Source: Spirochaetes bacterium GWB1_36_13 (GTDB lineage: Bacteria; Spirochaetota; GWB1-36-13). From it: a stretch of DNA of 35,431 bases. Positions 3,448 through 31,188 of the stretch are shown one piece after another. The notes beneath the pieces are model-generated. The model was not told where the DNA came from, ran no database searches, and was given only the letters and a program-made list of their open reading frames with translations. The translations under genes were made by a program, and so were the position numbers. Positions within the stretch are counted from its first letter, which is position 1. Each line of letters opens with the position of its first letter. The stretch spans positions 1 to 35,431 of the forward strand of contig MIAO01000122.1 of the NCBI GenBank assembly GCA_001829155.1. Direction: 5' to 3'.

Positions 3448-5577
3448 ATGTTTTATTTTAAAAAGATAGGCAAAAGCTTAAAATTAAAAACGATTATCAT
3501 GGTGATATCTATTTTATTTATTACTATCAGCATTACATTGACAATTAATTTAATACAAATTAAAGACAGGCTGAAAGCCGCTTTAGAACGGGAAATTTAT
3601 ACCAGCGGGTTGTTAGTAAAAAAAATTGTGGATACCAACCTCAGTTTTTTTGCTTTAGAAAATCTTTCAGGCATGAATCTTTTCTTAAATGAAGTTTTAA
3701 ACAGTAATGAAAATATCTCTTATGTTTTTATCAGTAATAAAAAAAGAATCATTCTTTATCACAATAACCTGTCTTACGAAAATACTCCTTTAGATCAGGC
3801 AATTTATACAGACCGTATTTTAACAGACAGCTGGAAAATTCTGCCTATAGGACAATATTATGAGAGTGTTACGCCTGTTTCTTTTGATAATCAGACAATA
3901 GGGTATATTCATGTTGGAGTAGATAAAAGCATTATAGATAAAGAAATTATTAAAATTATTTTAAAAACAGTTTTAATTTTTATAGGTGCGCTCATTTTTA
4001 CAATTTTGATGCTTATTTTTTTCATTTCAAAAAAAATTGTGTCTCCTATCACCGCATTATCCCAGGAAATGAAAGGGATTACAAAAAATATGAATCTGAA
4101 GAAACAGGTTCATGTGATAGGACAGGATGAAATCTCGGTACTCGGAAAAGAATTTAATTTAATGCTGGAAGAGATTCGAAATTATTCTGAAAATCTGGAA
4201 GAAATGGTTGAGGAAAGAACAGAAGAACTAAAGAAATCCCTTGATCAGGTCAATATGCTGAATCTTCAGCAAAGCGGAGATTATTTTTTAACTTCTTTAC
4301 TAATCAATCCTTTAATGGAGGAAAATAAACAGCACAGCAAAAATATAGAAATGGATGTTTATCTTTCACAGAAAAAAAAGTTTGACTTCGGTCATAGAAA
4401 AGGAGAAATTGGAGGGGATATTTGTATTATTGATGAAATTGAGCTTCAGGGAAAACAGTATACTGTATTTGTAAATGGCGACGCAATGGGAAAATCGCTT
4501 CAGGGAGCAGGCGGGGCACTGGTAATGGGAGTCGTTTTTCGTTCTTTTATTACCCGTACAAAACTGATGAAAATAATGCGGAATTTTTATCCTGAAAGAT
4601 GGCTTAAAAATTGTTATGAGGAGCTGCAGAATATTTTCGTTTCTTTTAACGGAAGCATGATGATATCGGCTGTAGTCGGTCTAATAGATACGGAGACTGG
4701 ATTTATCTGTTATTTTAATGCAGAACATCCCTGGTCTGTTTTATATCGTGATAAAAAAGCGGTTTTTACAGATGAATCCCTCTCTCTGAGAAAAATAGGG
4801 ATTGACATTGAAAAACAAAACCTGATTATTCATTCTCTCCAGCTTGAGTATAAAGATGTTTTTTTAGTAGGTTCAGATGGACGGGACGACATTATGATAG
4901 GTTATGACGAAAAAACAAACACTCGAATTATCAATGAAAATGAATATCAATTTTTAGAAATTGTAGAACGGTCAGAAGCGGATTTAAATCAAATTATTTT
5001 AGAAATTAAGAAAATGGGTGAAATAACAGATGATTTATCTTTGATCAGAATTTTTTATAAAAAAGAGATAATGCCGGAAATATCTGAAGTAGAAGCTTTT
5101 AAAATTAAAATGAAAGCAGAAAAAGCTTTTCAGGAAAATCGTCTTGAAGAAGCGGTGAATATTTTTTTAAATTTAGCTTCAAAATACAAAAAACAAGCGG
5201 TTTATTCAAGGATTATAGACTGTTACCGATTACTTGGAAACAATTATTTAGAAAAAGAAGCTGAAATCCTAGAAACTGCTCTTATTCAATTTCCAAGTAA
5301 TTTAGATTTTATTTTTAATATCTCGCTTGTTTATAAAAAATTGAAAAACTATGAAAAAGCGTTGGATTATGGCGAAAAATTCAGACTTTATCAAGAGTAT
5401 CATATTAATAATCTTATTAATCTTGCAGATATTTATCGACTGGCGAAAAATGATATTGGATTTTTGAAAATAATGAATATTCTTAAAATGATAGCTCCAA
5501 ATAATGTTAATTATATAAAATTAAAAGAAATAACAGAAAAAGAATTTATTTCTTCTCAAAATAGCCGGATAAAATGA
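3448..5577 (+). CDS. Membrane sensor phosphatase, sCache-like/HAMP/SpoIIE with TPR tail
   Basis: The 709-aa protein has the same N-terminal layout as the one at 304: TM, sensor domain with NISYVFISNKKRIILYHNN and YYESVTP, TM, HAMP and coiled coil. A SpoIIE-type phosphatase (about 290-540) and a helical TPR-like tail (about 545-700) follow. Acidic metal ligands persist (D324 in IGGD, D345 in NGDAMGKS, D477 in GSDG, D528/D529), but the usual D-SGHG motif is replaced by GDAMGKSLQGAGG. I recall that form from other spirochaete SpoIIE proteins. The TPR tail suggests a tethered protein partner. The reading frame looks richer in A/T-ending codons than its neighbours, and the gene is flanked by near-identical repeats at 3209-3360 and 5650-5810, so it may be a late insertion or a deletable segment. 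Confidence 0.85.
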   Translation: MFYFKKIGKSLKLKTIIMVISILFITISITLTINLIQIKDRLKAALEREIYTSGLLVKKIVDTNLSFFALENLSGMNLFLNEVLNSNENISYVFISNKKRIILYHNNLSYENTPLDQAIYTDRILTDSWKILPIGQYYESVTPVSFDNQTIGYIHVGVDKSIIDKEIIKIILKTVLIFIGALIFTILMLIFFISKKIVSPITALSQEMKGITKNMNLKKQVHVIGQDEISVLGKEFNLMLEEIRNYSENLEEMVEERTEELKKSLDQVNMLNLQQSGDYFLTSLLINPLMEENKQHSKNIEMDVYLSQKKKFDFGHRKGEIGGDICIIDEIELQGKQYTVFVNGDAMGKSLQGAGGALVMGVVFRSFITRTKLMKIMRNFYPERWLKNCYEELQNIFVSFNGSMMISAVVGLIDTETGFICYFNAEHPWSVLYRDKKAVFTDESLSLRKIGIDIEKQNLIIHSLQLEYKDVFLVGSDGRDDIMIGYDEKTNTRIINENEYQFLEIVERSEADLNQIILEIKKMGEITDDLSLIRIFYKKEIMPEISEVEAFKIKMKAEKAFQENRLEEAVNIFLNLASKYKKQAVYSRIIDCYRLLGNNYLEKEAEILETALIQFPSNLDFIFNISLVYKKLKNYEKALDYGEKFRLYQEYHINNLINLADIYRLAKNDIGFLKIMNILKMIAPNNVNYIKLKEITEKEFISSQNSRIK

Positions 5578-11700: not shown

Positions 11701-14700
11701 TTGAAAACTTGTAAAAAAACAAAAAAATATGATTTTTATCATTTAGCAAAAAAAATTTTATCTTATATTGATTTAAACGAGCTTTTAGATTTGCTGGGAA
11801 AAGAAATTGAAAAAATTAATCCTGTATCAGGATATTCAATTTCTATGCTTGATGAAAACCAAAAAAATCTTGTCATTCAAAAAATATCCATGCCTCCTGA
11901 TTTTAAAAATATTGAAAAAGCTTATTACCGCTATTCAATGCCGATTGACAGCACTGATATTCTTGCAAAAGTCTTAAAAGAAAAACAAACGCTTTATACT
12001 AATTTAAACCATCTTGATAAAGTGGGGGAGACTGTCCGATCCAGATTTATGTTGTGGAAGATTAAAGAAGCTTATACTCTGCCAATATCTGATGGCAGTC
12101 GTATTCTTGGAAGTCTTTTGATTTATGTGAATGATGAGGTTCAAGGTTCTTTTAATCCAAATGACATAAGCCTTTTGGAAGAAAAATTAACTCTTTTTGC
12201 CCCTCAATTGGCACATTCTCTTTTTTATTCGAGACTGAAAGAAAAAGAGATGATTTTAAAAACAGCCGCAGAAAAGAATAAAAAAGTATTAGCCATTGCC
12301 TATAAAATCAATAACCTGACTTCTGAAAAACTGATTTATACCCAGATTATTAAAGAACTTTTGCAGCTTTTTGATTTTGATTTTGGAGGTTTTTTTCTTT
12401 ATAAAAACGGAGTTTTAGAAGTTATTGATTATTTTGGACTGAAAAGCGAATATAATCAAAAATTTCAATCTATGAAAAACCTTCCTTTAAACAGACCCTT
12501 TCAGATTACAGTCAATGAAAGCGCTGTTTCAATCTGTTTTCTCCAGAATGTTCATTTTTATCTCAATGATTACCAGCAGTTGAAACACCTTCCTGTTCTT
12601 CCAAGAGACAAGGAATTTATTGATTTTCTAGGATATGATATCAGGACGCATTTTTTGATGCCGGTCAGAAAAGACGGGATTCCGATCGGGGTCATTACTT
12701 TGACCAGTCTTGAAAAACCGCTCAATTTGCCGGGGGAAGACATTCAGACTATTTCGGAAATTTGTTCTTTTATCAGTTCCGCAATCGATAATTCGAGGCT
12801 TTACAGCCTGATTGACCATCAGAAAGAAGAAATCAGAAAAACAAAGAATTTTGTCGAAAGCATTGTTGAGTATGCCCCTATTGCTATTTACACAATTGAT
12901 AAAACAGGCGTTATCACCAGTGAAAACCCGATGATGAAAAAACTTTTGGAGGATTTTGAAGGCAAGGCGGTAGGCTCAAATGTTTTTGAGCTGGAAAGCA
13001 TCCGGAAAGCCGGGATTTACGATTCTTTTCATGAAGCTTTAACTCATGGGAAACATTTTGACTTTATGAACCTGAAATTCCTTTCTTCCCTGACAGGGAA
13101 AAAACTGGTTTTGAATGTCAGTATTTCTCCTATCTATCAAAATGAAGAAATATCCGGCGCTATCTGCATGTATTACGATAATACGGAAAAAGCGGCGGCT
13201 GAGGAAGAAATTCAGAAACTTTCGCACCTTACGATCCTGATCAACTCAACCTTAGATATTGAAAAAATATTTGATATGGTTTTTATTTACATTAATAATG
13301 AATTTCATTTTGAAGGCTTGATCTTTTATCTGCCGGATGAGAAAGAAGAAAATCTTTTTCCGGATAAGATTCTGGTTCAGAACCTGAGTCAAAACTTTGT
13401 GGATGAAATTAATCATATCAAAATCCCTTTGACTGAAGAAGGAAGAATCCCTTACGCTTTTAAAAATAATAAAACTCTCTATTTTAACCAGCATAATATC
13501 AAGCAGATTTATAAATCTTCTTATGATAAAATGATGGTGGAAAAATATTCCTTGATGACCGATGTCGTTTTGCCGATTGAGATTTATAATCAGGTAATCG
13601 GGATTATTGAGCTGGTCAATTTTTCTGATTTTCTTGAGCTTTCACAGGAAAATCTGGAGAAAATCAGGGGGTTTATCTCACACATTACTTCAGCTATCTA
13701 CAATTCCAGGCTTTATCAGAAAATGAAAGAAAATAACCTTGAACTGGAAAAAGCGAAAAATGAAATTCAGGCCATGAACGAAATTGCCAAACAGATTAAT
13801 ATGAAACTCAGCCTTCCGATTGTACTTGAGAAAATTCAAAATTATCTGATTGAAAACTATGGTTTTGAAGGGATCAGGATATCATTGGTGCAGCCGGATA
13901 AAACACATTATCAGATTCATATTGCAAAAATATTTGTTGATATGCCCCGTGAGATCAAGGATTTTCAGGAAAGCGAGACGGGAAAAATATATCCTCTTGA
14001 TGAAAGGGGAGGAAGGGTAACCGAGTGCATCCTTTCCAATCAAATTTCATTTTTTACCGATATTTGTCCGCGGGAAATTGAAAACAAAGTCAGCCGTGAA
14101 ATTGTGGAAAAACTTCAGATGAAATCAGTATTAAACATGCCGATTCATATCGAGGATGAAGTGATCGGAGCTTTTACTTTAAGCACTCATACCCGCTTTA
14201 TTTATTTGAATCAGGAAGATATTGCCTCTATCAAGCGGTTTGTCGAGCAGATTTCAGTCGTCCTTCGGAATGCCAAACTCTATGATGAAATTGAAAAGAC
14301 TAAAAATGCTCTTTTAGAAAAAGACAGGGTCATTTCAGAAGACCTGATGATGGCAAAGAGAATCCAAAATAATGTGATTTCCGATAGTTATAAAACCATC
14401 GGCGAGCTGGATTTTTTTGTTCACTATCAGCCCCAATTCGAAGTAGGCGGAGATATTTATGATATTTTCCAGTTGAAAGAAGGCGTCATTCGTATTTTTA
14501 TTGCCGATGCAACCGGACATGGAGTTCAGGCAGCGCTTACAACAATGATTATTAAAACAGAATATGAAAAGGTGAAAATTTTTGAACTTTCAGTAAACCA
14601 TATTTTAAAAACCCTTAACCGGGCATTTCTAAACCAGTATGCCAATTTAACGGTTTTTTTCAGCTGTATTCTCATCGATATTGATCTGAATCAAATGAAG

Positions 14701-15054
14701 CTTTATTACTCATCAGCCGGTCATCCGGTTCAGTATCTGATCCGCGGGGAAGAGCTTGTAGAATTAAAAGCCGGAGGAAAACTCATTGGACTTTTTGATT
14801 CTTTCGAATACGAAAAAGTGACCATGGATATTCAGAAGGAAGATAAAATATTTCTTTTTACAGACGGGCTTTTTGAGGAATTTAATGATCAGGAAGAAGA
14901 ACTGGGGATTGATGAATTAAAACGAATCATTGAAAAAGCTTCTATTCTGCCTTTGAATGAAATGGGAAAAGAAGTTTTAAAAGATGTTGAAAATTATATT
15001 GGTAAGATGGATTTAAATGATGATATTTCTGTACTTGGGGTAAGAATCAAGTGA
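11701..15054 (+). CDS. Cytoplasmic multi-sensor phosphatase, GAF-GAF-PAS-GAF-GAF-SpoIIE
   Basis: The 1117-aa protein lacks TM helices. It appears to carry two GAF domains (about 20-180 and 205-365), a PAS domain (about 385-500; VEYAPIAIYTIDKTGVIT), two more GAF domains (about 510-680 and 695-865), a coiled-coil linker, and a SpoIIE/RsbU phosphatase (about 880-1115). Catalytic Asp residues are present: D918 in VGGDIYD, D936 in ADATGHG, D1055 in FTDG and D1107/D1108 in NDDIS. The start is TTG, set by AGGA six bases upstream. It should integrate several cytoplasmic signals and dephosphorylate an anti-sigma-antagonist-like protein, but no STAS or HPK partner lies in this window. It is monocistronic, 117 bp after hcp. 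Confidence 0.88.
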   Translation: MKTCKKTKKYDFYHLAKKILSYIDLNELLDLLGKEIEKINPVSGYSISMLDENQKNLVIQKISMPPDFKNIEKAYYRYSMPIDSTDILAKVLKEKQTLYTNLNHLDKVGETVRSRFMLWKIKEAYTLPISDGSRILGSLLIYVNDEVQGSFNPNDISLLEEKLTLFAPQLAHSLFYSRLKEKEMILKTAAEKNKKVLAIAYKINNLTSEKLIYTQIIKELLQLFDFDFGGFFLYKNGVLEVIDYFGLKSEYNQKFQSMKNLPLNRPFQITVNESAVSICFLQNVHFYLNDYQQLKHLPVLPRDKEFIDFLGYDIRTHFLMPVRKDGIPIGVITLTSLEKPLNLPGEDIQTISEICSFISSAIDNSRLYSLIDHQKEEIRKTKNFVESIVEYAPIAIYTIDKTGVITSENPMMKKLLEDFEGKAVGSNVFELESIRKAGIYDSFHEALTHGKHFDFMNLKFLSSLTGKKLVLNVSISPIYQNEEISGAICMYYDNTEKAAAEEEIQKLSHLTILINSTLDIEKIFDMVFIYINNEFHFEGLIFYLPDEKEENLFPDKILVQNLSQNFVDEINHIKIPLTEEGRIPYAFKNNKTLYFNQHNIKQIYKSSYDKMMVEKYSLMTDVVLPIEIYNQVIGIIELVNFSDFLELSQENLEKIRGFISHITSAIYNSRLYQKMKENNLELEKAKNEIQAMNEIAKQINMKLSLPIVLEKIQNYLIENYGFEGIRISLVQPDKTHYQIHIAKIFVDMPREIKDFQESETGKIYPLDERGGRVTECILSNQISFFTDICPREIENKVSREIVEKLQMKSVLNMPIHIEDEVIGAFTLSTHTRFIYLNQEDIASIKRFVEQISVVLRNAKLYDEIEKTKNALLEKDRVISEDLMMAKRIQNNVISDSYKTIGELDFFVHYQPQFEVGGDIYDIFQLKEGVIRIFIADATGHGVQAALTTMIIKTEYEKVKIFELSVNHILKTLNRAFLNQYANLTVFFSCILIDIDLNQMKLYYSSAGHPVQYLIRGEELVELKAGGKLIGLFDSFEYEKVTMDIQKEDKIFLFTDGLFEEFNDQEEELGIDELKRIIEKASILPLNEMGKEVLKDVENYIGKMDLNDDISVLGVRIK

Positions 15055-15121: not shown

Positions 15122-15982
15122 TTATCTCAATAACTGAAGAACAGACTGGGTCTTCTGGTTTGCCTGCGTAAGCATAGAAGTAGCAGACTGAATCAGAATG
15201 TTGTTTTTAGAGTAGTTGACCATTTGGGCAGCCATATCAGTATCTCTGATTCTGGATTCAGCAGCCTGCATATTTTCAGCAGCGCTCATAATTCCTTTGG
15301 TTGCGAATTCAAGTCTGTTTTGGTACGCGCCTAAGTCAGCTCTTTGTTTAGAGATGTTTTTCAAAGCCAGATCAAGCGTTCCGATAGCCTGGTTTGATTT
15401 ATCAGAAGTAGAAAGAGAAAGCAGGTCGTTGGTTGCAACATCTTTTAATCCAAGAGATTTTGCAGTCATTGTTCCAATGAAGACTTTTTCTCTTTGATCC
15501 ATGTTTGACCCAATGTGAAACCACATGCTTCCTACAGCGCTGTTTCCCATCACCGGCTGAGCAAATCTTCCTGTGAGCATGTTCAGACCGTTAAATTGCG
15601 CATGGGATGCGATTCGATCCACTTCATCCACCAGCTGAGAAACTTCAACTTGAATCTGCATTCTGTCTTCAGCAGTATAAATACCGTTTGAAGATTGAAC
15701 AGCAAGTTCTCTGACTCTCTGGAGAATATCCTGAGTATTCTGAAGGTATCCTTCTGCTGTCTGGATAAAAGAAATTCCATCCTGTGCATTTTGAGCGGCT
15801 CTGTTTAAGCCTCTGACTTGTGATCTCATTTTTTCAGATACAGCAAGCCCGGACGCATCGTCGCCCGCTCTGTTGATTCTCATTCCTGAAGACAGTTTTT
15901 CAATGTCTTTCTGAAGTGCATCGTCGTTCATCTTCAGCTGTCTGTTTGAGTAAATGGCGCTCATGTTGTGATTAATAATCAT
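15122..15982 (-). CDS. flaB: Periplasmic flagellar filament core flagellin FlaB (copy 1)
   Basis: The 286-aa protein is a minimal flagellin with only the conserved N- and C-terminal D0/D1 helices, as in spirochaete FlaB. The N-terminus is [16 protein letters not shown], then [20 protein letters not shown]. The C-terminus is [20 protein letters not shown] ending SVLQLLR. I set the start at 15982 rather than the upstream in-frame codon at 16024, because AGGAGG is correctly placed and FlaB proteins begin MIINHN. It is divergent from flaA. It closely resembles the flaB at 31474, differing mainly in the central 140-210 region. Export is by the flagellar type III system, not a signal peptide. Confidence 0.97.
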
Positions 15983-16030
15983 GGCGTAAACCTCCTTGTT
16001 TTTTGTAAGTGTCATCCTTGACATTTTAAT

Positions 16031-16059: not shown

Positions 16060-16195
16060 ATTTTTTTTTTAAATATTTTTTCTTTGCCCCTTTAATAAAT
16101 CATAAAATAACCGAAAATCTTTTTTATTAACTTATGTTAAAAATAATTTTTATTAAAAAACCGTATTCAGATACTTGATAAAAAAGGGGATCAGA

Positions 16196-17131
16196 ATGAA
16201 AAGAGCTTTAACAGGAGCGCTGATTTTTTTTCTAGCTACCAATCTATTGATTTATTCTTACACACCTTCAGGTGAAACCAAGGTCGGAAAAGAAAATATT
16301 AAAACCATTATGCTGGATGATTTTGAAAGTCCCGCTCAGTGGACTGCAAAATATTCCAAGTACAGAAGCCAGACTTGGAAAGATACCGGTGCAGGAGGTT
16401 TTGAAGATGCTGGAAAATGGATGATCTGGAAAACAATTGACGACCTTCCTGTCAAAATTGAAACACTTACTTTTGAATATCATGTTCTTGGGAAAGTAGA
16501 AGACGCTGAAAAAAACTTTTTGCTCAGTATTTATAAAAAAGACGCGACTGGGAAAGAATATGTTTTAAAAGATAATCTGACCGAGGAAGAAAATAAAAAA
16601 GTCAGAGATATTATGAATATGATCCGCTTCCGTTCCGCCAATTTTTTATACAGTTCAAGACCTGAAATCAAGGGGATGGAAGGCAAGCAGGGGACAACCA
16701 TTATGGGGGTCAGGGGAAAGTTTAATATCGGCGGTTATAACCGGATTTATCTTGAGCCGAAGCAGGATCTTTATATGATGGGGCTGGTGGATTCTATCCG
16801 TGTCTGGGTATGGGGCGGAAACTATGATTATGATCTTTATGTGGTGATAAAAAATTTTCGGAATAAGTATTATACCCTTTATCTTGGAAACTTGAGATTC
16901 AGAGGATGGAAACAGATGAGCGTGAAGTTTCTGGGCTATAACATAGAACAGGTAGATCAATGGGTGCCTCAGATTAAGCCGCTTCAGTTTGTCCGGTTTA
17001 TGATTGTCAGTAAAATCAATGAGAAGCCTGATCGGTTTGGTATCTGGCTGGATGATCTTCAATATGACGCAGATTTGTTTGATCAAGTTTATCCTGGAAA
17101 AGCTTTGGAAAAAGAACTGGACTGGGATTAA
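16196..17131 (+). CDS. flaA: Flagellar filament outer-layer (sheath) protein FlaA
   Basis: The 311-aa protein has a signal peptide (MKRALTGALIFFLATNLLIYS) and the FlaA-family hallmarks: MLDDFESPAQWTAKYSKYRS near the mature N-terminus, a central GVRGKFNIGGYNRIYLEP, SIRVWVWGGNYDYDL, and a C-terminal GIWLDDLQYD. FlaA coats the FlaB core of spirochaete periplasmic flagella and is exported by Sec. ATG 16196 was chosen over the upstream TTG at 16175 because a GGGGA ribosome site precedes it and the signal peptide begins there. It is divergent from flaB, with 213 bp between starts. Confidence 0.92.
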   Translation: MKRALTGALIFFLATNLLIYSYTPSGETKVGKENIKTIMLDDFESPAQWTAKYSKYRSQTWKDTGAGGFEDAGKWMIWKTIDDLPVKIETLTFEYHVLGKVEDAEKNFLLSIYKKDATGKEYVLKDNLTEEENKKVRDIMNMIRFRSANFLYSSRPEIKGMEGKQGTTIMGVRGKFNIGGYNRIYLEPKQDLYMMGLVDSIRVWVWGGNYDYDLYVVIKNFRNKYYTLYLGNLRFRGWKQMSVKFLGYNIEQVDQWVPQIKPLQFVRFMIVSKINEKPDRFGIWLDDLQYDADLFDQVYPGKALEKELDWD

Positions 17132-20862: not shown

Positions 20863-22626
20863 CTATTTAAAATCCAAGGCAATGGCTCCGTTCCAGTCTG
20901 GAGGGGGATTTTGCATGAGTTCTTCGGAGCGTTTTAAATAGAGATTGACCAGAAAATCTTTTGAGTTTAAGCGGGAAGACTCTGAAAAATACTGATGAGC
21001 CAGAAGAAAATTTCCCATTTTAAACATTTTGACCGCTTTATGATAAGAAGATAAAAAAGCCGGGTCGAATTCACCCGGAAAAAGAATGGTGTAAAGAGTA
21101 GTGGGGGTGTCTTTGCCTTTGACCATCACTGTATCCACCTCGCGGAATAAAAATTCTTTATTTTTGGCTTCTCGGTAAATCTCTTCAGACACCAGAATCC
21201 GGGTCTGATAGTATTTATTCAGGGATTCAAGCCGTGCGGCGAGGTTGACCGTATCCCCGATAGCGGTGTAGTCAAAATTATCGCTGGATCCGATGTTTCC
21301 TACAATTACTTTGCCTATATGAAGACCGATTCCGATCGAATATCCTTTTTCTCCGAAAACCAGATCCTGAAACTCTGTTTTTTTGACGAGTCGAATCATA
21401 TCAATAGCGGATTTTACAGCTCTCATCTCATTATCTTCATAGCTTTCCGGCGCCCCAAACATCGCAAAAACAGCGTCTCCAATAAATTTATTGATTTCTC
21501 CCCCGTGTTTTTTAATACAGTAGGACAATCCTGAAAAGTGAAGATTTAAAAAATCAACCGTGTTTTCAGCTGAATTGTTATTTTCAATTGAATGAAAATC
21601 CATGACATGAGAAAAAAGAACGGCTACTTCCCTTTTTTCTCCGATTTTCAGGCTTTTGAGATCGCTTCTTTGTAAAAGGTCGTCAATGACTTTCACAGGA
21701 AGAAAGCGGGAAAACAAAAAACTCAGTCTTTTTTTTGCAAATTGATTGTCTTGGTATTCGATGACCTGGTAAAATAGTTTAAATAAAAACGGGAGAAAGT
21801 TTTTAAAAAAAACAAGTTCTTCTTCTTCCATAGTGTGGGTAAAAAAAATTCCGCCGACCCGATTTTTATCTTTGGAAAAATACTCTTCCACTTCTTCTAC
21901 TCTGTCTCTTTTTTTTAAGGGAAGAGAAATTAATTTTTTATGCTCTTCCATTTTCAGATAAGAATGCTCATCCAGATAAGTGTCGAAGTTTTTAAGAAAA
22001 AAAGAAACAGCGCTGGTGTAATTGTCTTCCGGCAAAAGCGAGTGAAAAACAAGCGTGCTTTTAGAATAATAAGCAAAGCTGAAAAAAGAAAGGGAAAAGT
22101 ATTCGTAAAACATCGATGCAATATTTTCAAAAAAAGAAGCAAAGTTTTCAATACTGGTGATTTTTTCTATGATTTTATCGTACAAAAAAGAATGGTAAAA
22201 ATAAGTGTTCAAAATTTTGAGTATATTTTTTTCTACGCGTTCTTTTTTTTCCTGATCACATACAACTGGTTTTTTTTTCAGCATTTTCAGGACAGAGGGC
22301 AGCAGTTCTTCAATAGAGTTTTTTTGAAATAAAATCATTTTATCCACATCACTGAAAAAAATATTTTCTTTTTCCCTTTTATCAAATAACAGCATAATAA
22401 TGGGAATGTCTAAAGATTTTAATAAATAAATCACTAAAAAAATAGGAATATCATAGATATGGGAATCGATAATCACCAAATCCGGATTAATTTCTTTGAT
22501 ACTGTTTAATCCTATTTTTGCCTGATAAAAATAAAAGACTTCCATTTCCTGTGTCTGGAGTTTTTTGTCGATCCAGTCTGCGGCTTTTGGAGAAGAAAGT
22601 ATTGATAAAATCTTTTTTTTCATCAT
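20863..22626 (-). CDS. Class III nucleotidyl cyclase B, receiver-like N-terminus, first metal Asp replaced by His
   Basis: The 587-aa protein has a receiver-like domain (1-120; PDLVIIDSHIYD keeps a candidate phospho-Asp, but the acidic pair after strand 1 is lost), a GAF-like middle (about 135-310), the linker LPVKVIDDLL, and a class III cyclase domain (about 330-510). In the catalytic domain the first metal ligand, Asp in almost all active enzymes, is His340 (VLFSHVMDF; codon CAT at 21607-21609). The second metal Asp384 (GDAVFAMFG) is present, as are Lys380, Thr454 (adenine-type pair), Asn461 and Arg465 (GDTVNLAARLE). A short helical tail follows. ATG 22626 or 22623 fits better than the TTG at 22647. 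The gene follows cyclase A with one base between. Alone it should be inactive or weak; it complements cyclase A. Confidence 0.88.
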   Translation of the reverse strand: MMKKKILSILSSPKAADWIDKKLQTQEMEVFYFYQAKIGLNSIKEINPDLVIIDSHIYDIPIFLVIYLLKSLDIPIIMLLFDKREKENIFFSDVDKMILFQKNSIEELLPSVLKMLKKKPVVCDQEKKERVEKNILKILNTYFYHSFLYDKIIEKITSIENFASFFENIASMFYEYFSLSFFSFAYYSKSTLVFHSLLPEDNYTSAVSFFLKNFDTYLDEHSYLKMEEHKKLISLPLKKRDRVEEVEEYFSKDKNRVGGIFFTHTMEEEELVFFKNFLPFLFKLFYQVIEYQDNQFAKKRLSFLFSRFLPVKVIDDLLQRSDLKSLKIGEKREVAVLFSHVMDFHSIENNNSAENTVDFLNLHFSGLSYCIKKHGGEINKFIGDAVFAMFGAPESYEDNEMRAVKSAIDMIRLVKKTEFQDLVFGEKGYSIGIGLHIGKVIVGNIGSSDNFDYTAIGDTVNLAARLESLNKYYQTRILVSEEIYREAKNKEFLFREVDTVMVKGKDTPTTLYTILFPGEFDPAFLSSYHKAVKMFKMGNFLLAHQYFSESSRLNSKDFLVNLYLKRSEELMQNPPPDWNGAIALDFK

Positions 22627-22627
22627 T

Positions 22628-24238
22628 TTATCCGTTTTTTTTATCAATATCGGGCAGAGTATAGACAGGAAATTTTTTTTCTTCCAGTTCTATATTTCCC
22701 AGATAAAGAGAATCAGTATTATTATTTAATTTTTCTTTGACTGCTTGAGAAAACAAAATAGGGGTATGAAAATTTTTAGTGGAGGCCTCTAATTCTTCTG
22801 CAATTCTCACAACATCACCTACGGCAGTGTAAGCTTTTTTTTCATTTGATCCGATTTTGCCTAAAATCAGCTCGCCGATATGGATCCCGATTCCGTTATT
22901 GACTTTCTCATCGGGTAAATACAAGCCTTCAATATCCACTTTGTTCAGCTGGCCGACCATTTTTATTGCAGCCCGCACGGCTTGAAGGGCTGGATTTTCC
23001 GCATGATTTACTCCAAATAAGGCGACCACAGCGTCTCCAATCAATTTATCGATTATTCCGCCTTCTTCCCGTATGCAGCCTACCATCAGTTCAAAATAAT
23101 TGTTTAAAAATTGAACCACATTTTCAGCTGTGTTTTTTTCTGTAATCGTGGTAAAAGAGCGGATATCTGAAAACAAAACGCAGATTTCCCTTCTTTCCCC
23201 TTTTTCATTCTCTTCTTGTTTATCAAACATTTGATTAATGATGGTTTCAGGGACAAATTTTTGAAACACTTTTTTGACTTCTGTTTTCTTTTTTTCCGCA
23301 TTTTGATAATTGAAAGCATTGCCCATAATTTTTCCGGCTTTTGATGAAAAATCCTCTAAAATATTCAAAATATTATCAGAAGTAAAAAAATGATTGATCT
23401 GACTTCCGATATGAAGCGTGCCGATGATATCATTTTCGCTATTGAATATCTGATTGTAATAATAAGAACTGACTGTCTTTTTTCTGCCGGAGGAAAGATG
23501 CTCGAAAAAAGCCTCCTGTTTTTCCAGTGAATCAATATAAATCATGTCTTTTTCAAAATAAAAATACTTTTCTATTTTTTCATAATCAGAGTTTTTAAAA
23601 TTGGAAAAATGGTTGTGAAAAGCGACTTTAAAAAAATTTTCATAGCTTTTTTCTGATATTTCCTGCTGAATCAAAATAAATGCGGCTGTTTTTTTCTCTT
23701 CTTCCAAAAAAAAGATCAGTATATCAGGAGAAATTAAGATTTTCAGTTCTTCGAAAATATGGTACACGCATTCAGATAACGAATCCATCTTTTCAAAAGC
23801 TTTAAATAAATAAGTGTTTTTGATCATTTTCTTGGAATAGTTTTCAGGAAAATCTAAAATCTCTTTGTTTCTGAGAAAATCATATAATTTTTCCAATACT
23901 TTTTCAGGAAGCTCTGATCCTTCTTTTTTTTCCGAAAGTTTTTCTTCTATCAGGGGAAGTTCAGAGTAAAGATAAATTTTATTCAACCCAAGGCTTTCAA
24001 TACGCAGTTTATCAAAGGGGAGAATCTCATCCGCCAGAATATAAATAGGGATTGAATACGGCTCCAGTAAAAAATGAAGGGTATTGGCAATAATAAAAGC
24101 ATCGGGCATTTTTTTCCCGATAAAGACAGCATCGATAAAACTATTTCTTCTTCCAGAAATAGAAAGCAGATCATATTTTTTTAAATCAAAAAAAGGATTA
24201 TTCTCATCAATGAGAAGAATCTTCAGTTTTTTCATCAT
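22628..24238 (-). CDS. Class III nucleotidyl cyclase A, metal Asps intact but transition-state Asn/Arg lost
   Basis: The 536-aa protein has a degenerate receiver-like N-terminus (1-105; LLIDEN keeps acidic residues, but the phospho-Asp position reads PDAFIIANTL), a GAF-like middle (about 130-320), the linker FVPETIINQMF and a class III cyclase domain (about 345-520). Both metal ligands are present: Asp358 (VLFSDIRSF) and Asp402 (LIGDAVVALFG), 44 residues apart as in known enzymes. Lys398 and Thr471 are the adenine-type specificity pair. The transition-state residues are replaced: Asn by Arg478 and Arg by Glu482 (GDVVRIAEELEA). Homodimers should therefore be inactive. It overlaps the end of cheA by 32 bases and is followed directly by cyclase B, which supplies exactly the missing residues. 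Confidence 0.9.
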   Translation of the reverse strand: MMKKLKILLIDENNPFFDLKKYDLLSISGRRNSFIDAVFIGKKMPDAFIIANTLHFLLEPYSIPIYILADEILPFDKLRIESLGLNKIYLYSELPLIEEKLSEKKEGSELPEKVLEKLYDFLRNKEILDFPENYSKKMIKNTYLFKAFEKMDSLSECVYHIFEELKILISPDILIFFLEEEKKTAAFILIQQEISEKSYENFFKVAFHNHFSNFKNSDYEKIEKYFYFEKDMIYIDSLEKQEAFFEHLSSGRKKTVSSYYYNQIFNSENDIIGTLHIGSQINHFFTSDNILNILEDFSSKAGKIMGNAFNYQNAEKKKTEVKKVFQKFVPETIINQMFDKQEENEKGERREICVLFSDIRSFTTITEKNTAENVVQFLNNYFELMVGCIREEGGIIDKLIGDAVVALFGVNHAENPALQAVRAAIKMVGQLNKVDIEGLYLPDEKVNNGIGIHIGELILGKIGSNEKKAYTAVGDVVRIAEELEASTKNFHTPILFSQAVKEKLNNNTDSLYLGNIELEEKKFPVYTLPDIDKKNG

Positions 24239-26344: not shown

Positions 26345-27163
26345 TCACTTCTCCTTTCGTTTTTTGAAATAAAAAGCATTGTTATAATGAAGCAGTTCAA
26401 GATTGGGGTGCTGGATAAAAGCGGTATTTGAACTGGAAACAATCAGATATCCGTCTTCTTTCAAAACATCAACCGCTTTCCGGATAATTTCGTTTCTTAT
26501 CGTTGAGTTGAAATAAATCAGCACATTGCAGATGAAAATAATATCAAAATACGACTGGAGAACCGGAAAATAAAGGTCTTTTAAAAGGTTGATCTGTTTG
26601 ATTTGAATCAGGGAGAGGACTTCGGGGGCAATTGTAATGCTGTCATTGCTGATAACTGCGTTTTGTTTGATCAGTTCATGGAAGATTTCTCCGTCTTTTC
26701 TCATGGAAATCTTTTTATAAACGCCATTTTTGAGTTTATTCAGCGTGTTCAAATCAATATCAGTCGCAACCACTGGAGAATGAGATATTTTTTTTTCTCC
26801 CCACAAAGATTTTAAAAAAAGCGCGGCAGAGACGGCTTCTTCTCCGGATGAAGCGGCAGCGCTCCAGATCATGGGAGGAAAAGTTTTTTGTTCTTTATAT
26901 TTGGGTAAAATAATTTCCTTTAAGAGTTTGTAATATTTTTCTTCCCGAAAAAAATAAGTCTCATGAATCGTAAAAATCTCAATCAGGGCATTGAGTGCGT
27001 CCGTATTATGCTCCAGTTTTAATAAATATTTTTCAGGGGATTGATTCAAAAACTGATGATCCAGATAGCGTTTCACTGCTTTTTCATTGGATTCAATGAG
27101 CTGCAAACCGGTTTTGAGATAAATGTATTCAAAAATCGGCTGGTAATGGTTTTTATTTTCCAT
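26345..27163 (-). CDS. cheR: Chemotaxis methyltransferase CheR
   Basis: The 272-aa protein has an N-terminal helical domain followed by the SAM-dependent methyltransferase fold. Signatures are HETYFFREEKYY, WSAAASSGEEAVSAA (SAM-binding loop), ATDIDLNTLNKLKNGVY and CNVLIYFN. It methylates glutamates of the signalling domain of MCPs, here presumably the operon MCP at 29188-31188. The start overlaps the cheB stop by 11 bases and the stop is followed by cheA after two bases. The catalytic motifs look intact, unlike the phosphotransfer residues of CheA and CheB. Confidence 0.94.
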   Translation of the reverse strand: MENKNHYQPIFEYIYLKTGLQLIESNEKAVKRYLDHQFLNQSPEKYLLKLEHNTDALNALIEIFTIHETYFFREEKYYKLLKEIILPKYKEQKTFPPMIWSAAASSGEEAVSAALFLKSLWGEKKISHSPVVATDIDLNTLNKLKNGVYKKISMRKDGEIFHELIKQNAVISNDSITIAPEVLSLIQIKQINLLKDLYFPVLQSYFDIIFICNVLIYFNSTIRNEIIRKAVDVLKEDGYLIVSSSNTAFIQHPNLELLHYNNAFYFKKRKEK

Positions 27164-28154
27164 ATTGATTCCTGTTTTTCACAATTGAAATCAAATAATC
27201 CGCAATTTTTTCTAAAGGAAGTATGACCGATGCGCCGTTTAACTCAATCGCTTTTTTAGGCATTCCGAAAACAGTGGAAGTTTTTTCATCCTGAACCAGA
27301 GTAAATCCGCCGTTTTGAATAATTTTGAGACATCCGTTGGCTCCGTCCTGCCCCATTCCAGTCAGCAAAATCCCGACTAAATTTTTTTTAAAAGAATTGG
27401 CAGCGGTCTCAAAAAGCCTGTCCACAGCGGGTTTTTGGAAATTAACCTGCTGGGTGTCTTCATAATAAAAAACTTTATTTTTTACGACTAAATGGTTTCC
27501 CTGTAAAGCTAAAATCACTTCTCCCGCTTTGGGTTTGTCCTCATTGACGGCTGTGCGGATTTTTAATGGACTTTCCTGATCCAGATATTTGACCAGACCT
27601 TCCTCATGTCCTTGCTCCAGGTGCTGGACAATTGAAATGGAAACAGGAAAATCAGCCGGCAGATTATCTAAAATCATTTTTAAAGCTTTGGGTCCGCCCG
27701 TGGAGGAACCAATCACAATATGCTCGATTTTTTCTGTGTATTCTTGATGGGAAGCGTTTTGATTGTGTCTGGTCAAGGCTGGGAAAAGTTTTTTAAACTT
27801 GTTGAATAGTTCTGTTTGATAAAACTTGTCCTGAATCTTTTCCATGCTCGGATAATCAATGATTTTGGTAAAATTGAGTTTTTCAAGAGAAAGAATCTCT
27901 TCATTTTTCCATCTGCCTGTAAAAAGAATTTCAGTGAGAGAAGAAGCGTCTTTGAGTTGAGAAAAAAACTGGGTATCGGAAAAAGAAAAAGTATTCTCTC
28001 CCAAAATCAAGACATCGACCGAATTCTGTAAACAGAATTTCAAAGCTTCCTGTGAAGAGGAAGTCATAAAAACAACTTCTTCGTTTTGTTCTGCGAAAAT
28101 ATCTTTTAAAATATTCCGCATGATAGCAGAGGTGAGGGTCAAGACAATTTTCAT
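27153..28154 (-). CDS. cheB: Chemotaxis methylesterase CheB with a dead receiver domain
   Basis: The 333-aa protein has a receiver-like domain (1-115), a linker and the CheB esterase/deamidase domain (about 140-330). The catalytic triad is present: Ser in IGSSTGGPKAL (near 149), His in VQHLEQGH (near 175) and Asp in TGMGQDGANG (near 270). In the receiver the usual VDDS becomes TLTS (L7, T8) and the phospho-Asp position is Gly52 (VLILGENTF), so it cannot be phosphorylated conventionally. The esterase should therefore be uncoupled from CheA phosphate. It starts with an ATGA overlap of the cheW-like stop and has a GGAG ribosome site. Confidence 0.92.
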   Translation of the reverse strand: MKIVLTLTSAIMRNILKDIFAEQNEEVVFMTSSSQEALKFCLQNSVDVLILGENTFSFSDTQFFSQLKDASSLTEILFTGRWKNEEILSLEKLNFTKIIDYPSMEKIQDKFYQTELFNKFKKLFPALTRHNQNASHQEYTEKIEHIVIGSSTGGPKALKMILDNLPADFPVSISIVQHLEQGHEEGLVKYLDQESPLKIRTAVNEDKPKAGEVILALQGNHLVVKNKVFYYEDTQQVNFQKPAVDRLFETAANSFKKNLVGILLTGMGQDGANGCLKIIQNGGFTLVQDEKTSTVFGMPKKAIELNGASVILPLEKIADYLISIVKNRNQYGK

Positions 28155-28681
28155 AAAAGCGCTCCGTTTTTTTCTTGCAAAGCAGTGATCATTATTTTTT
28201 CTAAATCAATAAAATAAATTATTTTTTTTTCAATAAAAGAGCAGGCGGCAATTCCATGCTGATAAAGGCATGAAAAAAAATAGGAAGAAAGTAATTTAAG
28301 GTTTGAAAGAGAAATGTTTTTTATTTCCAGAGATGAGGGGAGAAGACAGGCAATGAGATGGGGAGAAAAAGATTGTTTGTCTTTTCTGAGGCTTTGTTTT
28401 AAAAGGCGTTGACTTTCTTTGGAATAATTTTTTGTATCGGTGATGATGCATAAAAGAGAAGAATCTTTTTTTTCTGTTTTAAAATGCCTGCATAAAAACT
28501 GATCCAAATCAAAAAGCAGAATTTTTTCTTCTCCGTACTGAATGATTTCCTGAAAATAAGGAATTGCTTTTTTCCTTTTTCCCAGAATATCGGGAGTAAC
28601 GCTCGCAAAAAACTGACTCCGGTTGATGTAAAAATCCATATTGGAATAATGAATGGATAAAAAATAGTTTTTTTTACTCAT
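28151..28681 (-). CDS. Divergent CheW-like protein
   Basis: The 176-aa protein has no clear family match, but its layout fits a CheW-type double barrel: YFLSIHYSNMDFYINRSQF at the start, an ILLFDLDQFL strand, and a closing GIAACSFIEKKIIYFIDLEKI. The RGLIN/G-x-I-P-V-V-D core of typical CheW is absent. The gene lies between a typical cheW and cheB with overlaps on both sides (its start lies within the cheW stop region; ATGA at its end). ATG 28693 is an alternative start. It may be a second coupling protein or an adaptor to the cyclases. The CheW assignment is moderate. Confidence 0.65.
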   Translation of the reverse strand: MSKKNYFLSIHYSNMDFYINRSQFFASVTPDILGKRKKAIPYFQEIIQYGEEKILLFDLDQFLCRHFKTEKKDSSLLCIITDTKNYSKESQRLLKQSLRKDKQSFSPHLIACLLPSSLEIKNISLSNLKLLSSYFFSCLYQHGIAACSFIEKKIIYFIDLEKIMITALQEKNGALL

Positions 28682-29174
28682 ATTCAATATCATGATGAAT
28701 TTTTTTTATTATTTGCCGAGTGTCCAATACAGGGATTTCTTCCTTCTCTAATGAGATAAACTGAGCAAAATAATTGTCTTTGGCATTTGAAGAAAGAATA
28801 GTGTGGATATTGTCTTTTTCAATAAAAACAATCTTTAAAACATCTGTGATGAGAAATGCTATTTTATCTATTTTATCCCGGAGAATAATAAATTTTTTCC
28901 CATCCAGCTTTTCATTATTGATTAATAAATGAATATCCACAACCGTATAAGGATCTCCCTGGCGGTTAATAAGCCCCCTGATATATTGAGGCACAAAAGG
29001 GAGATAGTAGATTTCGCTGTTGATAATAATTTCCTGCACCAGATTTTCCGCTAGAGCAAAATATTTTTCAGCAATCAGAAAGATGACAAATTTCTGCCCT
29101 TCATGAATTTCATTTTTTTCTTTCAGCTGATTTTCAGAGCGTTGTATTTCTTTAATAATTTCTGAATTTTCCAT
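28674..29174 (-). CDS. cheW: CheW chemotaxis coupling protein
   Basis: The 166-aa protein has a short N-terminal extension and a CheW domain: KFVIFLIAEKYFALAENLVQEII, then YYLPFVPQYIRGLINRQGDPYTVVDIHLLI, IAFLITDVLKIVFI and EEIPVLDTRQII. CheW links the MCP signalling tip to CheA. An upstream in-frame ATG at 29222 lies inside the MCP gene. I prefer ATG 29174, 13 bp after the MCP stop and preceded by GAGAG. It overlaps the next gene slightly. Confidence 0.9.
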   Translation of the reverse strand: MENSEIIKEIQRSENQLKEKNEIHEGQKFVIFLIAEKYFALAENLVQEIIINSEIYYLPFVPQYIRGLINRQGDPYTVVDIHLLINNEKLDGKKFIILRDKIDKIAFLITDVLKIVFIEKDNIHTILSSNAKDNYFAQFISLEKEEIPVLDTRQIIKKIHHDIEYE

Positions 29175-29187
29175 TGACTCTCTCAAT

Positions 29188-31188
29188 TTAATTTTTTTCA
29201 GTATTGGATTCTTTCGTGGCATCTATTTTGTATCTGCTGACCAGATGAGCGGATGTTTCTGAAACATTGTAAAGGTCTTCTGTCACTCCTGAAATTTCTC
29301 TTGTGGCAACGGCGATATTGTCCGCCCCCTCAGAAATCTGTTTAATGGCAATGGATACCTGTTCAAAAGTAACCACCTGCTGCTGAATCGATTTCGCGAT
29401 CTGATTCATGGATTCAGTCGATATTTCAGAACTGGATAAGACATCTTCAAAAAGTGCGTGGATATCTTTGGCAAACTGGTTGCCTTCTTTAATTTTTTCA
29501 GTTCCTGTTTCAGAAGTTAAAATCAGGCGGTCGGAAGATTTTTGAATCTCGGTGATTCTTTCTTTAATTTCACGGGTGGAAGTAACGGTGGAATCAGCCA
29601 GTCTTCTGATTTCAGCCGCAACAATCTGGAAATTTTTTCCCGCTTCTCCAGCTGAGGAAGCTTCCAATTCCGCATTAAAGGCAATGATTTTTGTCTGATC
29701 GGCAATGTTATTAATCATGTTGACAATATCCCAGATATTGTTTATTTTTTCACTTAAAAACTTGATCCCATCGATGGTGACCCGGTTTGCGTCGTTGATC
29801 TCAGACATTTTTTTAAGCGTATCCTGAACTTTATCAAATCCGTTTTTAACTGTTTTCTGGGTATTGGTACTGATATTGACTATTTCGTTGATTTTTTTCT
29901 CAATTGATTTTGATAAAATATCCAGATCTTCCATAGTGCTGACAATTTCTTTAACCGCTGCCGCCTGTTCGTTGGAAGTGGAAGAAGTTTCCTGTGATGA
30001 GCTTGCCAGGGTCTGAATCAGATCCAGAAGTTTATGGGTGACATTGCGCAAATTCATGAGAAGCTCGCGGTAGTTTGCCAAAAACTGGTTGAAAGACAAG
30101 CCCATATCATCAATTTCATCTTGAAGAATTTTATGAGAAACACTTTGATAGCCTTGAGTAAGGTCTCCTTTTTCCGCTACTGAAAAAATATGCCTGAATT
30201 TTTCGATTTTTTTTGCCAGCAGTTTTCCGGTCATGGAAGAAATCAATAAAGATATGATAAAAGCTACCAAAACTCCCAGAATAATGAAAATTTTTAAAAG
30301 AAACAAGGGAGCCATGAGTTCGTCATAAGACAATCCGCTGACAGCAATCCAGTCCAGTTCTGGAATATAACTGAAAAAAGCGATGTAGTCTTTGCCTTCT
30401 TCTTCAATCAAATAGTGAAGCTTGCCGTTTTTTTCCTGAAGCATTTTTTTAATATAAGGTTTATCAGATAGATTTTTTCCTTCCAGTTTTTCGTGAATAA
30501 GAGCATTGCCTTGATTGTCAATAATGTATATAAATCCAGTTTCACCCAGTTTAATGGAGATCAGATTATCCCTGAAATCAGCCGTATTCACCAGTGAGTT
30601 AAATTCACTCTTATAGGCAGAAACCCAGAGAATTAATTTCAAGGGTTCAAAATAGGTGATGTATCCTACTTTTTTTCTCGCCTGCTGTTCATTTTTATTT
30701 TTCCATTCATACTCAAAATACCCTTCTTTTTCAGGACTCTGTAAAATATTTTCTACCTTTTGCCAGAACGGCGCCTTGGAAACATTGACTCCTTCAGAGG
30801 CCGGATGAATCAATAAAGTTCCATCATCTTTCACTCCGGCAAGATAACCGGTCTCTCCTACTTTCATAAAAGCGGGGTAAAGAAAAATATTCCGGAGCAT
30901 TGCGATAACTTCTTTTTCACTTCTATTTTGCTTCTTTTTGTATAACTCGTAGTAGTACTCAGTCATGTTTTTTGTTTTTTGAGAAAAGGTTCTCAAATGG
31001 TTTTTGATTGAAACATCCAGAATAGCGGTTATTTTTTTATTAATGGTTTGAGACAAAAGACCAATATTATCTTCTTGTATCTGAATGATCTGAGATTTTG
31101 AATAAAAATAAACAACAATTCCTGTCAAGAGTAAAATAATAAACATGGTTCCGCCAAAAGTGATAAACAGCTTATTCCGGGTTTTCAT
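29188..31188 (-). CDS. Methyl-accepting chemotaxis protein with dCache-like sensor
   Basis: The 666-aa chemoreceptor has TM1 (about 10-30), a large extracytoplasmic domain (about 35-290), TM2 (about 294-318), a HAMP-like linker and a signalling coiled coil. The sensor has two similar halves typical of dCache: KVGETGYLAGVKDDGTLLIH and KLGETGFIYIIDNQGNALIH. The signalling tip (near 490-530) reads NNIADQTKIIAFNAELEASS and GKNFQIVAAEIRRLA, a somewhat divergent form of the conserved core. AAGGAG lies upstream of the ATG. It is the first gene of the chemosensory-cyclase operon and is presumably its dedicated receptor. No C-terminal CheR pentapeptide is visible. Confidence 0.94.
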   Translation of the reverse strand: MKTRNKLFITFGGTMFIILLLTGIVVYFYSKSQIIQIQEDNIGLLSQTINKKITAILDVSIKNHLRTFSQKTKNMTEYYYELYKKKQNRSEKEVIAMLRNIFLYPAFMKVGETGYLAGVKDDGTLLIHPASEGVNVSKAPFWQKVENILQSPEKEGYFEYEWKNKNEQQARKKVGYITYFEPLKLILWVSAYKSEFNSLVNTADFRDNLISIKLGETGFIYIIDNQGNALIHEKLEGKNLSDKPYIKKMLQEKNGKLHYLIEEEGKDYIAFFSYIPELDWIAVSGLSYDELMAPLFLLKIFIILGVLVAFIISLLISSMTGKLLAKKIEKFRHIFSVAEKGDLTQGYQSVSHKILQDEIDDMGLSFNQFLANYRELLMNLRNVTHKLLDLIQTLASSSQETSSTSNEQAAAVKEIVSTMEDLDILSKSIEKKINEIVNISTNTQKTVKNGFDKVQDTLKKMSEINDANRVTIDGIKFLSEKINNIWDIVNMINNIADQTKIIAFNAELEASSAGEAGKNFQIVAAEIRRLADSTVTSTREIKERITEIQKSSDRLILTSETGTEKIKEGNQFAKDIHALFEDVLSSSEISTESMNQIAKSIQQQVVTFEQVSIAIKQISEGADNIAVATREISGVTEDLYNVSETSAHLVSRYKIDATKESNTEKN

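Follow-up and report, generated by a model that had tools for sequence, protein, structure and literature searches.

The locus described here raises the question of whether two adjacent bacterial class III cyclases, each lacking a different part of the catalytic set, could make up a single enzyme together. The window (the whole stretch of DNA analysed, 35,431 nucleotides from Spirochaetes bacterium GWB1_36_13) carries both genes, referred to as A and B, in a chemosensory operon. The active sites of class III cyclases are located at a dimer interface, with the metals bound by one chain and the Lys, Thr or Asp, Asn, and Arg supplied by the other. According to a 2022 review, bacterial class III cyclases homodimerise (PMC9552081). 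The evidence presented below makes it likely that A and B are the subunits of a class III adenylate cyclase that works only as a heterodimer and has a single active site, with both dimerisation and activity being inferred. The two genes are as follows.

22628..24238, minus strand: cyclase A, 536 aa, with a degenerate receiver-like N-terminus, a probable GAF-like middle, and a class III catalytic domain
20863..22647, minus strand: cyclase B, 594 aa from TTG, with a degenerate receiver-like N-terminus, a class III catalytic domain, and a C-terminal tail

The open reading frames of A and B overlap on the minus strand, and B comprises 587 aa if counted from the ATG at 22626, just past the stop of A. 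Its C-terminal tail is common to the single-copy relatives. Both proteins match PF00211 (Guanylate_cyc) above the Pfam cut-off (6.3e-19 for A and 1.9e-26 for B). The models of A (pLDDT 73) and B (pLDDT 77) have catalytic domains that compare with CyaC (1wc1) at TMt 0.75 and 0.77–0.78, respectively, and the fit to CyaC, Cya2, and CyaB, with TMt of about 0.7–0.8, satisfies the class III fold. Since only single chains were modelled, the fold is supported, with no information on the interface. The receiver-like N-termini of the A proteins have no canonical phospho-site. In B of the window D61 is present and the acidic pair is absent; across the eight B proteins discussed below the acidic pair is mostly gone, with the receiver Asp kept in six and replaced by N or S in two. 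Neither A nor B meets the criterion for a response-regulator-type cyclase (acidic pair, phospho-Asp, Thr/Ser, and Lys).

The positions of the active site residues, set by alignment with OaPAC, CyaB, and Cya2, as well as with complete single-copy relatives, are listed below.

23165..23167, minus strand: A, metal Asp 1, D358 (GAT), invariant in 8/8 A
23033..23035, minus strand: A, metal Asp 2, D402 (GAC), invariant in 8/8 A
22805..22807, minus strand: A, where the catalytic Asn is lost, R478 (AGA); over 8 A: R, G, S, S, S, T, E, E
22793..22795, minus strand: A, where the catalytic Arg is lost, E482 (GAA); five E and one each of A, G, and L over 8 A
21607..21609, minus strand: B, where metal Asp 1 is lost, H347 (CAT), His in 8/8 B
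21487-21489, minus strand: B, adenine-type Lys, K387 (AAA), invariant in 8 B
21265..21267, minus strand: B, adenine-type Thr, T461 (ACC), invariant in 8 B
21244..21246, minus strand: B, catalytic Asn, N468 (AAC), invariant in 8 B
21232..21234, minus strand: B, catalytic Arg, R472 (CGG), invariant in 8 B

The adenine-type pair of A, K398 (AAA) and T471 (ACT), and the second metal Asp kept in B, D391 (GAC), were identified by direct reading of the codons on the minus strand. The full set (two metal Asp, Lys with Thr or Asp, Asn, and Arg) is met only by the A:B combination. A full catalytic set on a single chain, as expected of a bacterial homodimer, is found in none of the eight pairs, with A lacking Asn and Arg and B lacking Asp 1. 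The complementary distribution of residues over two chains that yields one complete site, characteristic of the C1/C2 type, is met, at the sequence level only.

A preliminary description, made from the sequence alone, had assigned D358, D402, Arg478, and Glu482 in A, and these assignments hold to the codon. Its residues of B hold as well, with shifted numbering: B had been counted from Met8 (the ATG by the stop of A) and not from the TTG, so that its His340, Asn461, and Arg465 are H347, N468, and R472. The statement that both proteins keep the Lys/Thr pair is also correct. The claim that A:B has exactly one complete site is now supported by the same complementary loss in all eight homologous pairs. 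The residue losses agree with the further claim that the homodimers are dead or weak; their inactivity, as well as the association of A with B, is still inferred.

The search for co-occurring pairs in other spirochaetes, proposed in that description, identified the same adjacent A–B pair in seven further genomes, with the same order and the same losses, giving eight pairs including that of the window. Two genomes among 60 relatives (G015 and G043) carry A and B side by side, three more pairs (G063, G314, and G244) were added from 393 genomes of the phylum, and two others, in Spirochaetales SZUA-382 and ZodW_Metabat.93, came from the matches of a pattern scan built on an alignment of six B proteins and run against one genome per species (84,980 species). 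The other paired genomes are what we take to be Spirochaetes GWE1_32_154, Spirochaetia UBA12135, Spirochaetes GH29, Ja_bin-4832, and RH-23may17-786. The number of pairs is at least eight; most of the genomes are MAGs. Single-sequence scans gave no matches for A against genome contigs or for B against viral contigs. One of the paired genomes, G244, has both a paired (L134) and a single-copy (L135) chemosensory cyclase operon.

When the six catalytic positions (Asp1, Lys, Asp2, Thr, Asn, and Arg) are read by profile alignment, all eight B proteins show H-K-D-T-N-R, and all eight A proteins show D-K-D followed by Thr (Ala in one), with Asn and Arg both lost. The latter two positions in A are occupied by R/E, G/E, S/E, T/E, S/A, S/E, E/G, and E/L, that is, by five residue types at the Asn position and four at the Arg position. 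In A, 82% of the catalytic core is more conserved than the Asn position, and in B both Asn and Arg are invariant. Taken together, the six residues of the sole composite complete site are invariant in 8/8 pairs while the unused positions of A drift, as selection on a heterodimer predicts. The gene order is always A then B, adjacent, on one strand and in a fixed position of the operon, and the reading frames are open in eight divergent genomes. Separate homologues with the same substitutions would have refuted the preliminary claim, and no lone gene with an A-type or B-type lesion was found among the cyclases read.

In the arrangement that we propose, A would provide the metal-binding D358 and D402, and B would provide K387/T461 for adenine recognition and N468/R472 for the transition state. 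The A:B dimer would then contain one complete site and one without Asp1, Asn, and Arg; A:A would lack Asn and Arg twice and B:B would lack Asp1 twice, the inactivity of both homodimers being inferred. Certain class III enzymes can work with atypical residues at the Asn or adenine-binding positions, and weak homodimer activity is therefore possible. The opposite site of the heterodimer (H347 and D391 of B with K398, T471, R478, and E482 of A) would be catalytically dead and free for another role. His347 and Asp391 of B and Lys398 and Glu481 of A are invariant in all eight pairs, which argues that this site is not merely eroding and that it likely has a regulatory or structural function. Metal or nucleotide may still bind there. 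Glu481 (22796-22798) adjoins the lost Arg of A, at a position where Ala or Ser is usual.

The genes upstream of the pair, starting with the chemoreceptor, are as follows.

29188..31188, minus strand: Cache-domain chemoreceptor (MCP), start of the operon
28674..29222, minus strand: CheW
28151..28693, minus strand: conserved 180-aa protein with no Pfam match, found in paired and single operons
27153..28154, minus strand: CheB methylesterase
26345..27163, minus strand: CheR methyltransferase, 272 aa
24207..26348, minus strand: CheA-like protein, 713 aa, with a degenerate Hpt, a weakened kinase core, a CheW-like domain, and a C-terminal receiver with Asp

REC–mononucleotidyl cyclase regulators occur in ACF chemosensory clusters (PMC3447774), and the content of such a cluster (MCP, CheW, CheA, CheR, and CheB together) is present at this locus; the output of the cluster is inferred to be cAMP and not motility. 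In the CheA-like protein, QNIQG is found where HTIKG is expected, and the criterion for a CheA histidine kinase (HTxKG) is not met. The Hpt His is gone in the CheA of all seven checkable paired operons, that is, those with the CheA N-terminus available (QNIQG, DSIRS, TAMIG, DILAA, EALAA, TSIIG, and VTIMG), and kept in 9 of 11 single-cyclase operons. In these seven (the window, L069, L070, L133, L134, L146, and L148) the kinase core is also weakened, and most paired-operon CheA have a shortened ATP lid. Four of the other CheA-like proteins of the window genome have an intact Hpt motif. The degeneration of CheA had been missed in the preliminary description, as had the second family of pairs described below.

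With CheA lacking the phospho-accepting His and A lacking a phospho-site, the output probably does not depend on phosphotransfer from the neighbouring CheA; such transfer to the cyclases appears unlikely, as far as can be inferred, and gating of the cyclase by contact is inferred in its place. The complex of Cache-MCP, CheW, and the CheA-like protein would probably control the cyclase without phosphotransfer from its CheA. We can speculate further that an array with CheA as a pseudokinase scaffold gates the single-site heterodimer directly, with the dead site (His347/Asp391 of B and Lys398/Glu481 of A) serving as an allosteric pocket comparable to the forskolin side of mammalian adenylyl cyclase; this bolder reading is no more than possible.

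The idea that loss of the Hpt His marks paired systems alone was rejected, as the single operons of G328 and G387 have a CheA without a kinase core. In the single-cyclase operons at L141:7675-9186 and L143:4697-6256, the CheA-like proteins, of ~500 aa, lack both the kinase core and the Hpt His, and the cyclase is complete. The protein encoded at 28151-28693 was likewise rejected as specific to paired operons, since its relatives occur in single ones; it is located between CheW and CheB in both types and could possibly be a divergent CheW. CheR comprises ~270–300 aa in paired operons (26345-27163 in the window), and most single operons (L071, L135-L140) have a long C-terminal extension, with open frames of ~470–590 aa.

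The origin of the pair can be approached through its single-copy relatives. In a catalytic-domain tree, built with the three telling active-site columns left out, A is monophyletic (100/99), B is monophyletic (100/98), and both are found inside the single-copy clade, with the closest single-copy relative of B in G212. All 35 che-clade cyclases examined outside pairs are complete, with Ser replacing Thr in some. In the 11 operons checked, a few of which lack one che gene in the available stretch, a single gene occupies the place of the pair downstream of MCP, CheW, CheB, CheR, and CheA. Since these relatives in the same operon are complete, a homodimer was probably duplicated and its halves then specialised; we regard duplication of one complete homodimeric cyclase, followed by complementary loss, as the likely origin. 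The placement of A versus B is unresolved, and two separate recruitments are thus not excluded.

A complementary split is also present in a second family, consisting of five adjacent pairs of CHASE2 cyclases in G036, G025, G044, G014, and G103 (pair loci L240:2988-7150, L241:1985-6053, L242:2069-6142, L243:2115-6191, L252, and L282). The lead was a cyclase of G036 with T/D at Asn/Arg, which adjoins a cyclase with Ala at Asp1. Here the order is the reverse of that in the che-linked pair: the first gene retains Asn and Arg and has Ala or Ser at Asp1, with Asp2 also replaced, by Glu, in three genomes, and the second gene retains both Asp, with Thr/Asp or Ile/Glu at the Asn/Arg positions. In a joint tree obtained by a quick method, both CHASE2 groups are placed with complete single-copy CHASE2 enzymes, far from the che-linked clade, which implies that the split evolved at least twice. 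Both families are known from one phylum only.

Three other explanations of the pair may be considered. B, with the fuller catalytic core, could be active as a homodimer through His347, with A as a regulatory partner. In favour of this proposal, B retains five of the six catalytic residues, the VKGK loop, and a C-terminal tail of the single-copy type, and His is able to coordinate metals. It leaves unexplained, however, why both metal Asp of A persist in 8/8 cases while its Asn/Arg positions drift, and why Ala or Ser, which are poor metal ligands, are found at the matching position of the CHASE2 pairs. We therefore consider it unlikely.

Still less support can be found for A and B both being decaying pseudogenes or non-catalytic signalling proteins. 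Residues essential to a homodimer are indeed lost in both, and the receiver-like domains and the adjoining CheA are degenerate as well, but the frames remain open in eight divergent genomes, the six residues that make up exactly one composite site have stayed unchanged along long branches, and the split originated repeatedly and independently. Least probable is the possibility that the main partners of A and B are other class III cyclases in the same cell. The genome does encode six more of them, yet A and B are invariably adjacent, with overlapping genes, and are jointly present in eight genomes. The obligate A:B heterodimer thus remains the preferred reading.

Among known systems, the mammalian transmembrane adenylyl cyclases (C1/C2) and soluble AC (AC10) are similar in having one live interface site, with metals from one half and Asn/Arg from the other, a degenerate second site, and an origin by duplication. 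They differ in carrying both halves on a single chain and in their cyclase subgroups, whereas A and B have receiver-like N-termini and are encoded separately, by two bacterial genes of a chemosensory operon. Animal soluble guanylate cyclase alpha/beta (PMC3591389) and the fungal heterodimeric rhodopsin cyclases NeoR/RGC (PMC7655827) are obligate heterodimers of separate homologous subunits, although both are eukaryotic and GTP-specific and carry other sensors. The single-copy REC-type cyclases of spirochaete che operons (G041, G009, G169, G218, G224, and others) are direct relatives from the same operon and catalytic clade, but consist of one gene with the complete set, several with intact receiver residues and the CheA Hpt His. 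The CHASE2 tandem pairs, from other spirochaetes, share the complementary split between adjacent cyclase genes and differ in clade, sensor, gene order, and the residue replacing Asp1.

Such a pair in a bacterial chemosensory operon had been thought undescribed, and no account of a bacterial complementary cyclase pair was found in the open-access literature searched, which excludes most subscription papers. The heterodimeric one-site design is treated as a eukaryotic step; at the sequence level, it is seen here at least twice in bacteria. It is likely, with activity and dimerisation inferred, that adenylate cyclases made of two obligate subunits arose in bacteria as they did in animals. A and B would constitute a natural two-subunit bacterial adenylate cyclase, its activity being inferred, tied to an array whose CheA is without the phospho-accepting His. 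As single-gene relatives survive in the same operon, the transition from homodimer to obligate heterodimer becomes directly amenable to study.

In the window genome (3.04 Mb), which its FlaA and its named relatives mark as that of a spirochaete, there are eight PF00211 matches. Besides A and B, which alone were seen as a pair on a contig, six further class III cyclases are present. The eight matches to cNMP-binding domains in this genome indicate that candidate cAMP receptors exist. Another of its cyclases (L008, G000 C99) has Ser at the position of the adenine-type Lys, as read by profile alignment. Elsewhere in the window, three SpoIIE-type phosphatases with HAMP, Cache or GAF/PAS sensors are encoded inside 15 kb (64-1905, 3448-5577, and 11701-15054), near the genes for flagellin (15122-16024) and FlaA (16175-17131).
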